Shown here piece by piece: positions 30,044 to 33,857 of a DNA stretch of 35,212 nucleotides; within the stretch, counting starts at the first letter, position 1; each line of letters begins with the position of its first letter. Source of the DNA: a virus; IMG/VR virus record IMGVR_UViG_3300046734_000216, positions 1-35,212 of that record. One strand, written 5' to 3'. The position numbers and the translations under genes are program-made. Under the pieces are notes generated by a model that searched no databases, was not told the origin of the DNA, and saw nothing but the letters and a program-made list of their open reading frames with translations.

Positions 30044-30661
30044 ATGATTAATATACATGAAACTTTTCAAGAAACTTTACAAGGAGAGGGTTATTATACC
30101 GGTACTGCTTGTGATTTTATAAGAACTTATGGATGTCCTGTTGGATGTTATTTTTGTGATACAGGATATGAACCAGATGGAGATTATTATAACAAAAAAA
30201 TAAAAAAACATAAGAAATCTATAGAAGAACTTATTGCTGAACTAAAATCTGATCTAGTTGTTATTAGTGGTGGCGAACCATTTATTAATAAAAATTTACC
30301 ACAACTTTGTAATGAAATAATTAAGACAGGAAGAAAAGTTAGTATTGAAACTTCAGGAAGTTATTGGCAACCTATATCTGAAGATGTATTTGTAACTCTA
30401 TCCCCAAAACAACATATAAGTCCTAAATTTCCTGTATTGCAAGGCTTTTGGAGACGAGCAAATGAATTTAAATTAGTTATATCAGAGGGAAACGAATTGG
30501 ATTTTTATAAAGAACATTTAAAGAACTTTAAAGGTTATAAGTACTTGCAACCAGAATACAACGAACACTCTAAGTCTTTACAAAACTGTTTATCTTTGAT
30601 AAAGGACAATCAAGAGTTTAAATTAAGTTTACAAACTCATAAAATTATAAATGTTAAATGA
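30044..30661 (+). CDS. queE: 7-carboxy-7-deazaguanine synthase QueE (radical SAM)
   Basis: 205 residues. IHETFQETLQGEGYYTGTA precedes C31-P-V-G-C35-Y-F-C38, the C-x3-C-x2-C cluster of radical SAM enzymes, and SGGEP (75-79) follows, together diagnostic for QueE. It converts 6-carboxy-tetrahydropterin to 7-carboxy-7-deazaguanine (CDG), the branch point of the preQ0/preQ1/archaeosine pathway. First of a tight set with QueD- and FolE-like genes (ATGA overlaps). In phages this set supplies 7-deazaguanine for DNA modification. Confidence 0.93.
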   Translation: MINIHETFQETLQGEGYYTGTACDFIRTYGCPVGCYFCDTGYEPDGDYYNKKIKKHKKSIEELIAELKSDLVVISGGEPFINKNLPQLCNEIIKTGRKVSIETSGSYWQPISEDVFVTLSPKQHISPKFPVLQGFWRRANEFKLVISEGNELDFYKEHLKNFKGYKYLQPEYNEHSKSLQNCLSLIKDNQEFKLSLQTHKIINVK

Positions 30662-31104
30662 GCTTTATATCAACTAAAACTTACAATCACAGTATTGGAT
30701 TATCTTGTGCGTTCCGACAATGGAGAGCAAAACATAGTCATTGTAAATATATTCATGGTTATGCTTTATCAGTAAGATTAAATTTTAAAGGAATGTTAAA
30801 CGATAGAAATTGGGTTTATGACTTTGGCGACCTAAAATTTGTTAAGGAATTTTTAGAAGATACTTTTGATCATAAAACTGTAGTTGCAGAAGATGACCCA
30901 GAACTAGAAACTTTTAAAGAACTAGAAGAAAAAGGTTTGATACAACTTAAAATTATTCCTCATGTAGGATGTGAGAAATTTGCAGAATATATTTGCAAAC
31001 AAATAGCTACTACGATAGAAGTTAATAGTAATGAACGAGTTAAGTTAATGTCAGTTGAAGTAAGAGAACATTCAGGAAATTCAGCAATATATATTAATGA
31101 TTAA
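30658..31104 (+). CDS. queD: QueD-like 6-carboxy-tetrahydropterin synthase (T-fold)
   Basis: 148 residues. Likely converts dihydroneopterin triphosphate to 6-carboxy-tetrahydropterin. Aligned by eye with E. coli QueD, the catalytic Cys (C29 in HSHCKYIHGY), Asp71-His72 and Glu137 (VREH) are kept. Two of the three usual zinc histidines are not: the F-x-A-A-H site reads SCAFRQW, and H-G-H reads H-G-Y. Nearby H26 and H28 might compensate. The same FRQW/SHC/HGY form is, as I recall, common in alphaproteobacterial and phage QueD-type proteins. It overlaps queE by 4 bases and the next gene by 8. Confidence 0.85.
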   Translation: MSFISTKTYNHSIGLSCAFRQWRAKHSHCKYIHGYALSVRLNFKGMLNDRNWVYDFGDLKFVKEFLEDTFDHKTVVAEDDPELETFKELEEKGLIQLKIIPHVGCEKFAEYICKQIATTIEVNSNERVKLMSVEVREHSGNSAIYIND

Positions 31105-31951
31105 AAAATATTTAACTTGGGATGACTTCTTTGAACTTCTCATCCCTGTCCAAGACAAAATAACACCAGATGATATAGTTTTTGGGATTCCAAAAGGTGG
31201 AATGATTGTTTCTAATTTCTTAGAATGTAAAAAAACCCATGATCCAAATGAAGCGACTGTCATTGTAGATGATATTGTAGATAGTGGTAGAACAAAAAAA
31301 CTTCATACAGAAAACTTTCCAAAAGCTAGATTTATAACAGTAGTAGATAAACAAATTGGAAGTAAATATGATGGTTATATTGTGTTTCCTTGGGAACAGG
31401 CTGAAGAAGACGCAGAACATACTGTTGCTAAAATGATTGAACATTTAGGAGATAACCCTCTAAGAGAAGGAATAATAGATACACCCAAAAGAGTAGTTAA
31501 ATCATGGAAAACTATTTATGGTGGTTATAATCAAACACCTGAAGAAGTTTTAAAAACAAGTTTTAATGTCGATTATGATGAAATGATTATTTCTAAAGAC
31601 ATAGAATTTTATTCTACTTGCGAACATCATATGTTACCATTTTTTGGTAAAGCACATATTGCATATATTCCAAGAGCAAATGTTGTAGGACTTTCTAAAT
31701 TATCAAGATTGTTAGAAGTGTATGCAAGAAGAATGCAAATACAAGAAAGACTTACTAACCAAATAGCTGATGGAATGATGAAAGTAATGAATCCTTTAGG
31801 ATGTGGAGTTATTATAGAAGCTAAACATTTTTGTATGGTTTGCAGAGGTGTTCAAAAGAAAAACTCTACAATGATAACTTCAGCAATAAGAGGTTTATTT
31901 AAATCAGCAGAAGTTAAAAACGAGTTTCACAGTCTTTGTAGGCATAAATGA
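31097..31951 (+). CDS. folE: Phosphoribosyltransferase domain fused to GTP cyclohydrolase I
   Basis: 284 residues, two domains. Residues 1 to about 100 are a short type I phosphoribosyltransferase-like domain: GIPKGGM (30-36) as pyrophosphate loop and VIVDDIVDSGRT (55-66), the classic PRPP-binding motif. Residues about 105-284 are GTP cyclohydrolase I: CEHHMLPFFGKAHIAYIP with C175 and H178, VVGLSKLSRLLEVYARRMQI, QERLTNQIA, and EAKHFCMVCRGVQ with C246, i.e. the full zinc site. FolE makes 7,8-dihydroneopterin triphosphate from GTP, the first step to 7-deazaguanines. Stand-alone FolE lacks the N-terminal domain. One continuous frame; the fusion is not a sequencing join. Confidence 0.9.
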   Translation: MIKKYLTWDDFFELLIPVQDKITPDDIVFGIPKGGMIVSNFLECKKTHDPNEATVIVDDIVDSGRTKKLHTENFPKARFITVVDKQIGSKYDGYIVFPWEQAEEDAEHTVAKMIEHLGDNPLREGIIDTPKRVVKSWKTIYGGYNQTPEEVLKTSFNVDYDEMIISKDIEFYSTCEHHMLPFFGKAHIAYIPRANVVGLSKLSRLLEVYARRMQIQERLTNQIADGMMKVMNPLGCGVIIEAKHFCMVCRGVQKKNSTMITSAIRGLFKSAEVKNEFHSLCRHK

Positions 31952-32292
31952 AAACAACTATAGTTTGTAGATTACAAGTAGAGGGTATTCATCAATGGTC
32001 TAATTGTCCATTTGAAGATGTTAAATTTTTAAAGGACCCACATAGACATATCTTTCATATAGAATGTGAAAAGAAAGTTAACCATGATGACAGAGATGTT
32101 GAATTTATAAGATTTAAAAGAGAAATTTTAGATTATTTACATGATAAGTATTCAGATAGTGAATGTTGTAAGTTTGGAAATATGTCATGTGAAATGATTG
32201 CAAAAGAATTACTTAAAGAGTATGATCTAGAAAAATGTTCAGTTTTTGAAGATAATGAAAACGGTTCAGTAGTTTATCAATACGAGGTTTAA
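31948..32292 (+). CDS. Small T-fold-like protein, divergent QueD relative
   Basis: 114 residues, in an ATGA overlap with the FolE fusion. PHRHIFHIECEKKVNHDDRD then VEFIRFKREILDYL lines up with the IHGYALSVRLNFKG...VYDFGDLKFVKEFL part of the phage QueD, and MSCEMIAKELL plus CSVFED lines up with VGCEKFAEYICK plus VEVREH. H15, H32 and H34 could be the zinc triad and E101 matches the catalytic Glu, but Cys at the catalytic place and the Asp-His pair are missing. Similar small proteins occur in other phages, as I recall, without known function. T-fold assignment is by eye only. Confidence 0.6.
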   Translation: MKTTIVCRLQVEGIHQWSNCPFEDVKFLKDPHRHIFHIECEKKVNHDDRDVEFIRFKREILDYLHDKYSDSECCKFGNMSCEMIAKELLKEYDLEKCSVFEDNENGSVVYQYEV

Positions 32293-32293
32293 C

Positions 32294-32437
32294 ATGGCAA
32301 AAAAAACAGTATCAGCACCTAGAGGATTTCATTGGATGAAAGTTGGAAGAGGATTTAGATTAATGAAAGGTGCATACAAACCACATAAGGGAGCAGTAAA
32401 AAAAGCTAGTTTTACTGTGCAAAAAAAACATAAGTAA
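32294..32437 (+). CDS. Tiny basic protein within the modification cluster
   Basis: 47 residues: MAKKTVSAPRGFHWMKVGRG, then a KR-rich end closing in VQKKHK. Coupled to dpdA by a TAATG-type overlap. GFHWMKVGRGFRLMKG looks like a small beta-turn unit seen in other short phage proteins. A nucleic-acid-binding helper is possible; unproven. Confidence 0.55.
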   Translation: MAKKTVSAPRGFHWMKVGRGFRLMKGAYKPHKGAVKKASFTVQKKHK

Positions 32438-33243
32438 TGAAAGTTCACTTTGCTGGGCATGAAGATGTAGGAATGTCTAAGCCATTAAAAAAAGCTGGAG
32501 TTAATTATGTTCTTGGAAGTTTTTATCAAATAAGAAGATACAAAGACCAACATGCTATTGATTTTATTAAGTGTCTTAATAGTTATACTCATACTATTAT
32601 AGATTCAGGTCTATTCACATTAATGTTTGGTGCAAAAAGCCATACAGTACTTACAGAACAAATGATTATAGATTGGCAAAATGATTATGCTAATTTTGTT
32701 AACAAGACAGGATATAAACATTCAATAGTAGAATGTGATGTTCAAAAGAAAATATCTCCTGAGTTTGCATGGGAAATGAGAAAAAAATTTAAGACTCAAG
32801 TAAATGTTCCAATTATAAATGTTTATCACTTAGAAGATGAAAACCCAGATAAGCTAATTGATTATTCAGATTACATTGCTGTATCAGTTCCTGAGTTAAG
32901 ATTTAATGTATCTAATGCTGAAAGATTAAAGATAACAAGATACATAAGTCAAAAAGCTACTTCTAAAGGTAAGAAAGTACATTTGTTAGGTTGCACAGAG
33001 TTAAAAATGATGAAAGAATTTCAATATTGTTACAGTTGTGACAGTACAAGTTGGTTTTCAGGTAGTAGATTCAACAGTTTCAGATCCAAGGCTTTGCCAA
33101 ATATGGAAAAAGTCGATATAAACAAACTAAAAGAGAATAAAATTGACGAATTTAAAGATTCAAGTAAATCAACTAATGTATTCTATTGGGAGGCTTACCT
33201 AAAACTTCAGGAATACAAAAAATATGCTGGGAGCCAAGAATGA
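32437..33243 (+). CDS. dpdA: DpdA/TGT-like DNA guanine transglycosylase
   Basis: 268 residues. TIIDSGLFTLMFG (53-65) corresponds to the TGT substrate-site DSGG loop (D56), SIVECDVQ (96-103) to the second acid loop, VHLLGCTEL (181-189) to the G-x-G turn and YSCDSTSW (199-206) to the catalytic Asp loop (D202). This pattern is that of the tRNA-guanine transglycosylase superfamily branch that includes DpdA, which swaps guanine in DNA for a 7-deazaguanine base. About 100 residues shorter than bacterial TGT and without its C-terminal zinc Cys cluster, as expected for phage DpdA. Coupled to the ParB-like gene by ATGA. Confidence 0.78.
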   Translation: MKVHFAGHEDVGMSKPLKKAGVNYVLGSFYQIRRYKDQHAIDFIKCLNSYTHTIIDSGLFTLMFGAKSHTVLTEQMIIDWQNDYANFVNKTGYKHSIVECDVQKKISPEFAWEMRKKFKTQVNVPIINVYHLEDENPDKLIDYSDYIAVSVPELRFNVSNAERLKITRYISQKATSKGKKVHLLGCTELKMMKEFQYCYSCDSTSWFSGSRFNSFRSKALPNMEKVDINKLKENKIDEFKDSSKSTNVFYWEAYLKLQEYKKYAGSQE

Positions 33244-33857
33244 ACAAAGTAGAAACCATGAATATAGACAATTTAGTTAAAGCTGAATGGAACTATAAAA
33301 CAGATGGAACAGAAGAACAGATAAATAAATTAATTAAATCTATTAAATATGACGATTCTGCGGGTATATTAGCAGTAAGAAAACTAAATAATAAGTATGA
33401 GGTTATAGATGGAAACCATAGATTAGAAGCATTAAAAAGAATAGGATGGCAAGAAATTCAGGTTGAAAACTTTGGAGATATTCCAAAGTCAAAAGCCATT
33501 ATTATTGCTAGACGAAGAAATCATGTATGGTTTGATGATGACTTAAAAGCATTTAGTGATCTAATTAAGAATGATGTACTACCAGATATAGATACAGATA
33601 CATTAAAAGACATATTACCAGATACACCAGATGAGATAGATAACTTAGTTAACTTTGGTAATTTTGATTGGGAAGAACCTACTCAAAAAGAAGCTAAAGA
33701 ATCTGATGGTACTAAGACATTAACTCTAAAAATAGACGAACAAGTATATCAAATGTGGCTAGATTGGGTCAAGTGGTGTGCTGATCAAACTGATTATAAG
33801 AATGATAGTGAAGCATTTGAGTATTTAATTGTAGAGGCTAAAAATGGACAAAAGTAA
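33240..33857 (+). CDS. ParB/sulfiredoxin-fold protein upstream of small terminase
   Basis: 205 residues from ATG 33240 (ATGA overlap with dpdA); the open frame begins earlier but inside dpdA. EQINKLIKSIKYDDSAGILA, then YEVIDGNHRLEALKRIGWQE is the ParB N-terminal signature (DGNHRLEA). The second half is acidic (LPDIDTDTLKDILPDTPDE) with a helical C-terminus. No ParA and no HTH of chromosomal ParB. Phage ParB-domain proteins next to terminases are widespread; proposed roles include packaging-site recognition or nuclease/NTPase activity. It overlaps TerS by 14 bases. Confidence 0.85.
   Translation: MNKVETMNIDNLVKAEWNYKTDGTEEQINKLIKSIKYDDSAGILAVRKLNNKYEVIDGNHRLEALKRIGWQEIQVENFGDIPKSKAIIIARRRNHVWFDDDLKAFSDLIKNDVLPDIDTDTLKDILPDTPDEIDNLVNFGNFDWEEPTQKEAKESDGTKTLTLKIDEQVYQMWLDWVKWCADQTDYKNDSEAFEYLIVEAKNGQK

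Follow-up and report, generated by a model that had tools for sequence, protein, structure and literature searches.

The best reading of our data is that a family of small phage proteins with the tunnelling fold (T-fold) takes the place of QueC in phage 7-deazaguanine pathways, and this replacement is the strongest new fact to come out of the analysis. The member that we studied is encoded in the window, by which we mean the whole stretch of 35,212 nucleotides that was analysed (IMG/VR virus record IMGVR_UViG_3300046734_000216), and it belongs to phrog_17812 (E = 3e-22), a family annotated as 'unknown function'. In the genomes and loci surveyed, the family and QueC exclude each other; therefore, the protein stands where QueC would, after 7-carboxy-7-deazaguanine (CDG).

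The T-fold gene and its cassette

The T-fold gene lies in a tight operon (Table 1), where the start and stop codons overlap between queE and queD, between queD and folE, and between folE and the T-fold gene, the last of these junctions being an ATGA at positions 31948–31951. FolE, QueD, QueE and a DpdA-type transglycosylase are all encoded between positions 30044 and 33243, and QueC (PF06508) has no match in the 35,212-base record, making this a QueC-less variant of the cassette. A long FolE of about 280 residues, similar to the window's fusion, is also found at loci L034, L057 and L027, and stand-alone phosphoribosyltransferases occur in the cassettes of phages BUCT-ZZ01 and immuto.

The T-fold gene differs from its counterpart at locus L002 by 27 synonymous and 7 non-synonymous changes (6, 1 and 30 differences at the first, second and third codon positions). 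Across the close relatives at loci L002 to L005, the codon differences are likewise mainly synonymous and at third positions. Because the differences have this character, we conclude that the gene is real and constrained by purifying selection.

Table 1. Features of the window (upper seven rows) and of other records discussed in the text
Feature	Position	Strand	Evidence or remark
queE, 7-carboxy-7-deazaguanine synthase (radical SAM)	30044..30661	+	phrog_2076 E 4e-33; TIGR04322 E 1e-32
queD, 'HGY' type	30658..31104	+	C29, D71-H72, E137 retained; zinc histidines replaced by F19, Y35
folE (GTP cyclohydrolase I) with phosphoribosyltransferase-like N-terminal segment	31097..31951	+	profile matches
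T-fold protein, family phrog_17812, 114 aa	31948..32292	+	H15, H32 and H34 (putative zinc ligands); E101; S80-C81-E82 and E101-D102 of invariant type
basic ORF, 47 aa, between T-fold gene and dpdA	32294..32437	+	sequence only
dpdA-like transglycosylase (phrog_887)	32437..33243	+	E 7.5e-18
ParB-like protein, longest frame; start probably further in	33186..33857	+	recurrent dpdA neighbour
DpdA, T-fold and PF02592 cassette, Faecalibacterium phage Roos	L118:5168-7896
DpdA, T-fold and PF02592 cassette, G040 (also G042, G043)	L070:9127-12867
GT-B glycosyltransferase examples (cluster 3)	L006:10311-11342; L040:10332-11354; L070:10290-11447		34 further loci
GT-B glycosyltransferase, PA5oct	W02:224607-225608
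stand-alone phosphoribosyltransferase, BUCT-ZZ01	L119:1441-1902
stand-alone phosphoribosyltransferase, immuto	L127:6256-6651
HGY-type queD, further example	L127:4333-4794
formyltransferase-like gene and DpdA, immuto_2-6A	L127:8414-9891		PurN-type annotation
two QueD-like genes, PA5oct (MK797984)	169212-169721; 171504-171962		one HGH, one HGY

Relation to QueD and conserved residues

The first-pass annotation had aligned the protein by eye with the phage's own QueD and proposed a tunnelling fold. The AlphaFold2 model of the protein alone (pLDDT 95.3, pTM 0.88) agrees with this fold, having the order beta-beta-alpha-alpha-beta-beta and lying nearest to QueD. Foldseek's best matches in the PDB were to E. 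coli QueD (4ntk, E 2.5e-5), with the top 30 all being QueD/PTPS proteins or their homologues, and the best VIA match was also E. coli QueD (4ntm, Z 13.0, rmsd 2.0, 106 residues aligned), followed at Z about 9 by dihydroneopterin aldolases and then by QueF-like proteins (Z 8.6). The sequence profile matches the PTPS protein PH0634 over its full length (2dj6, E 0.0018), and profile–profile comparison with canonical phage QueDs gives P = 9e-6 with the HHxH columns aligned. The relationship behind the by-eye alignment thus stands, while the similarity of the two window proteins as a pair does not (BLASTP E 0.22, not significant).

Searches with the window protein returned no significant Pfam or NCBIfam family, and no PF01242 match at E values up to 1. 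A Pfam match to Mo25 fell below the cut-off (E 0.017) and was taken as chance, since the fold is the tunnelling fold.

The alignments place H15 and H32-x-H34 onto the zinc ligands of QueD, S80-C81-E82 onto its PTxEN motif, and E101 onto the glutamate of its last hairpin. Residue counts were taken from 61 aligned rows drawn from 60 non-redundant loci. The putative zinc triad is nearly invariant (H15 in 60/61 rows, H32 in 61/61 and H34 in 60/61), as are C81 (60/61), E82 (61/61) and E101 (61/61). A 44-sequence alignment has invariant H15, L28, H32, R33, R49, E52, S80, C81, E82, V99, E101, D102 and G106. The catalytic cysteine and the Asp-His pair are invariant in canonical QueDs; in the T-fold family, the place of the cysteine, four residues ahead of the first histidine of HxH, is Leu28 in 60 of the 61 rows, and no Asp-His pair is conserved in the family alignment. 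The first-pass annotation had already read H15, H32, H34 and E101, and the lack of the catalytic Cys and Asp-His, from the window protein, as well as the retained catalytic residues and departed zinc histidines of the window's QueD, and all of these readings hold. The window protein therefore retains the fold, a metal site presumed from the sequence alignments and a substrate anchor, with the catalytic residues of QueD gone.

The family is carried by 27 named phage records (tblastn) and by 80 IMG/VR loci (scan), the latter collected with the window protein as the query and often lying on partial contigs. Genome assemblies contributed only six family loci, all on MAG contigs, so the family is essentially a phage one. 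Domain fusions were considered as a functional clue and set aside, since Pfam gave nothing informative for either the 293-residue form in MA9V-3 or the 383-residue form in Bakedbeans. By eye, the extension of the MA9V-3 form resembles the HNH type.

Mutual exclusion with QueC

Among 49 family-bearing records, the search for QueC returned one partial match only. QueE is present in 11 of 12 named carriers and full-length QueC in none of the 12, with weak partial QueC matches in D479 and X1. Conversely, 12 of 13 named QueE phages without the family have a near full-length QueC, and the 13th (NCTB) has a partial one. The exclusivity among named genomes is significant (Fisher P = 1.9e-7, with NCTB counted as QueC-positive and the genomes treated as unrelated).

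The same pattern was found when QueC was the starting point. The T-fold family is present in none of 80 IMG/VR loci collected with QueC as the only criterion, of which 72 have QueE or QueD and 74 have a DpdA-like gene, and a profile search of the whole contigs of 46 of these loci did not find it either. As a positive control, the same query recovered all 12 named carriers. The survey suggested in the first-pass annotation therefore gave the pattern that it looked for: the gene co-occurs tightly with queE, queD and dpdA, queC is absent, and the gene is not widespread outside the company of queuosine-type genes.

Cassette composition and transglycosylase types

QueE is present in 42 of 48 family-bearing records, QueD in 42 of 49 (the window included) and a phrog_887 DpdA in 22 of 49; a Pfam TGT match above the cut-off was found in none of the 49. 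Four loci (L028, L031, L032 and L036) have no Q gene near the T-fold gene, yet queE lies elsewhere on their contigs, which rules them out as Q-free carriers.

Clustering the neighbours at 60 non-redundant loci revealed three TGT-like transglycosylase types, never together, that account for 48 of the loci (phrog_887 in 28, c9 in 13 and c15 in 7). The phrog_887 profile has a weak match to the DNA-guanine transglycosylase 7ui4 (E 0.046). The c9 type has DSGG..Q and TDSS motifs and includes a protein of Xanthomonas phage X1 annotated as queuine tRNA-ribosyltransferase. Because the c9 profile matches TGTs weakly, the assignment of c9 and c15 to DpdA subfamilies is putative. The T-fold gene often directly adjoins dpdA, which itself recurrently neighbours the ParB-like gene.

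Two further associations were seen. Carriers of the c15 type often have a small AAA/dNMP-kinase-like protein together with a dCTP-deaminase/dUTPase-like or MazG protein (clusters c15, c32 and c13; loci L083, L081, L030, L122, L124 and L126), and these kinase-like, dUTPase-like and MazG genes could point to nucleotide-level handling. In Flavobacterium phage immuto_2-6A, a formyltransferase-like gene adjoins the gene annotated as DpdA, and QueF follows just downstream; the formyltransferase-like gene is a candidate for producing formylated preQ1 DNA.

Glycosyltransferases and transporters in the cassettes

A GT-B protein is encoded at 37 of the 60 T-fold loci, often next to the T-fold gene, compared to 1 of the 80 QueC loci. 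Its presence varies with the transglycosylase type (13/13 for c9, 22/28 for phrog_887 and 0/7 for c15), and it is absent from the window and from 23 of the 60 loci. The GT-B model (pLDDT 88.5) has GlgM, PglA, BshA and MshA as its nearest folds, of which PglA, BshA and MshA are retaining, GT4-like enzymes. The best sequence match is to PDB entry 8xsg, a putative glycosyltransferase (1.4e-6); this accession also appears in a paper on a glucosyltransferase (PMC12159676). A link to the tRNA-queuosine mannosyl- and galactosyltransferases was considered but did not emerge, the best match being 8xsg and the fold matches being generically GT4-like. The presence of GT-B proteins in a QueC-less cassette suggests glycosylated 7-deazaguanine DNA.

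QueE is absent from four T-fold carriers (G040, G042, G043 and Faecalibacterium phage Roos), and all four contain PF02592, which we take to be the YhhQ-type queuosine-precursor transporter. PF02592 had no match in the other virus records tested, the only other hit being a 5.5-Mb bacterial assembly (G092). The T-fold protein has one and the same sequence in G040, G042 and G043, so there are at most two independent QueE-less cases. These carriers probably salvage their base rather than make it.

Proposed function

In the established pathway (PMC6884629), CDG forms the one known branch point that lies between QueE and QueC. FolE, QueD and QueE together convert GTP into CDG, which QueC phages then convert into preQ0. 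With QueC missing, CDG could either be inserted itself or be changed. We propose that the T-fold protein is a QueD/PTPS-derived enzyme that replaces QueC and processes CDG, most simply by zinc-assisted decarboxylation, and we regard this proposal as evenly poised between right and wrong; the decarboxylation chemistry is likewise given about an even chance. In the window phage and its relatives, one or more pocket glutamates of the T-fold protein would hold CDG beside the three-histidine metal site. A pocket that combines putative metal-binding histidines, a purine-anchoring glutamate and the conserved R33 and R49 would be a good place for the carboxylate to sit next to the metal. The simplest outcome would be conversion of CDG to 7-deazaguanine as a free base, prior to insertion, after which the DpdA-type transglycosylase and its ParB-like partner would swap it for guanine in the DNA. 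The cassette of Cellulophaga phage phi13:1 (queD-queE-folE-MazG-T-fold gene-kinase-transglycosylase-like) leaves the T-fold gene as the main candidate for the CDG-modifying step. We know of no T-fold decarboxylase.

The QueE-less carriers count against a CDG decarboxylase. All four have the T-fold gene together with dpdA and the transporter; therefore, the substrate there may be an imported base instead of CDG, except where CDG comes from the host. Decarboxylation also fits the GT-B-bearing phages poorly, since plain 7-deazaguanine has no obvious sugar acceptor. The T-fold protein could instead bind a 7-deazaguanine base other than preQ0, whether CDG or an imported one, and either deliver it to DpdA or make DpdA accept it, leaving the base chemically unchanged. 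Such a role would suit a gene that so often lies directly beside dpdA, that is found with all three transglycosylase types and that QueE-less phages retain alongside DpdA and a precursor transporter, and it would suit a protein that has lost the catalytic residues of QueD. However, the near-invariant metal triad, R33, R49, E52, S80-C81-E82 and E101-D102 look catalytic and not merely binding, and QueC phages do without the protein even though their DpdA is of the same broad family; we consider delivery of an unchanged base fairly unlikely. A different tailoring of C7, for example one that makes a sugar-acceptor group on a base later glycosylated in the glycosyltransferase phages, would account for the enrichment of GT-B proteins in the c9 and phrog_887 cassettes over the QueC loci. 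We rate it unlikely as well, because the window and more than a third of the loci have no GT-B protein and a T-fold of 114 residues shows no evident site for a redox cofactor. The GT-B and transporter contexts thus keep both the carrier and the other-tailoring accounts alive and motivate the case for glycosylated DNA. The first-pass annotation had itself raised the alternative of a factor that tailors or delivers the 7-deazaguanine base, and this alternative is supported.

The other suggestion of that annotation fared worse. The active sites of T-fold enzymes lie between subunits, and a hetero-oligomer was envisaged in which the T-fold protein, with its three histidines, lends zinc ligands to a phage QueD of the same fold that is short of two. 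Near the T-fold gene, the zinc-poor HGY QueD is found at 26 loci, but the zinc-complete HGH type is found at 12. HGY QueDs also occur without the T-fold gene in immuto, phiSM and MaInes and at 37 of the 80 QueC loci. Moreover, QueD was not found in G040, G042 and G043, the three of the four QueE-less carriers that were searched for it. The loss of zinc histidines in QueD and the presence of the T-fold protein are thus uncoupled, and zinc sharing is ruled out as the general function; we hold such a partnership to be highly improbable. The HGY type, which is widespread among phage QueDs, usually misses the first zinc histidine and keeps the Cys, Asp-His and Glu residues; it is found in the window, at L127 and at those 37 QueC loci. 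Phage PA5oct has two QueD-like genes, one of canonical HGH type and one an HGY variant that retains the first zinc histidine.

Significance and comparison with known systems

Our results give a family of 'unknown function' a concrete place in a pathway and a testable activity. In phages that have queE and dpdA without queC, the T-fold protein may explain how the modified base is finished, and the distribution of phrog_17812 marks the phages to assay. If the decarboxylation is true, it would be a new reaction for the tunnelling fold. If the link to the GT-B protein is real, it would point to an undescribed glycosylated guanine analogue in phage DNA, with relevance to restriction evasion. More broadly, and with rather more doubt than conviction, we suggest that the T-fold protein sets apart a QueC-less branch of the pathway. 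In this branch, a base that is tailored, or imported in the transporter-bearing phages, would be inserted by one of three alternative transglycosylases and, in over half of the cassettes sampled, would then be glycosylated by a dedicated GT-B enzyme. Were this correct, the products would include 7-deazaguanine DNA that bears sugars, a kind of hypermodification of which we know no description.

Cui et al. (2023) are said to have reported the bases dDG and dCDG and to have predicted a CDG decarboxylase, 'DpdL'. By analogy of context, phrog_17812 is a likely candidate for that family: DpdL would be expected where CDG synthesis and DpdA are present but QueC is absent, and the T-fold family occurs in just this setting, for example in Cellulophaga phages of the phiST type. 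The association with GT-B proteins and transporters seen for the T-fold family is not known to be part of the DpdL description. QueC (PF06508) occupies the same slot in the pathway, after QueE and before transglycosylation; however, it has an ATP-pyrophosphatase fold and a different chemistry, and it is not homologous to the T-fold protein. The closest known relatives are the QueD/PTPS proteins (PF01242), which share the fold, the size, the H..HxH zinc motif and the pocket glutamate of the last hairpin, and whose PTxEN has a counterpart in the 'xCE' of the T-fold protein. The T-fold protein differs from them in having Leu28 for the catalytic cysteine, no Asp-His pair and no PF01242 match. Unlike QueD, its family has invariant motifs of its own (HRH, DRxxEF, SCE and EDNENGA), and, unlike a plain QueD, its gene occurs beside a separate QueD.
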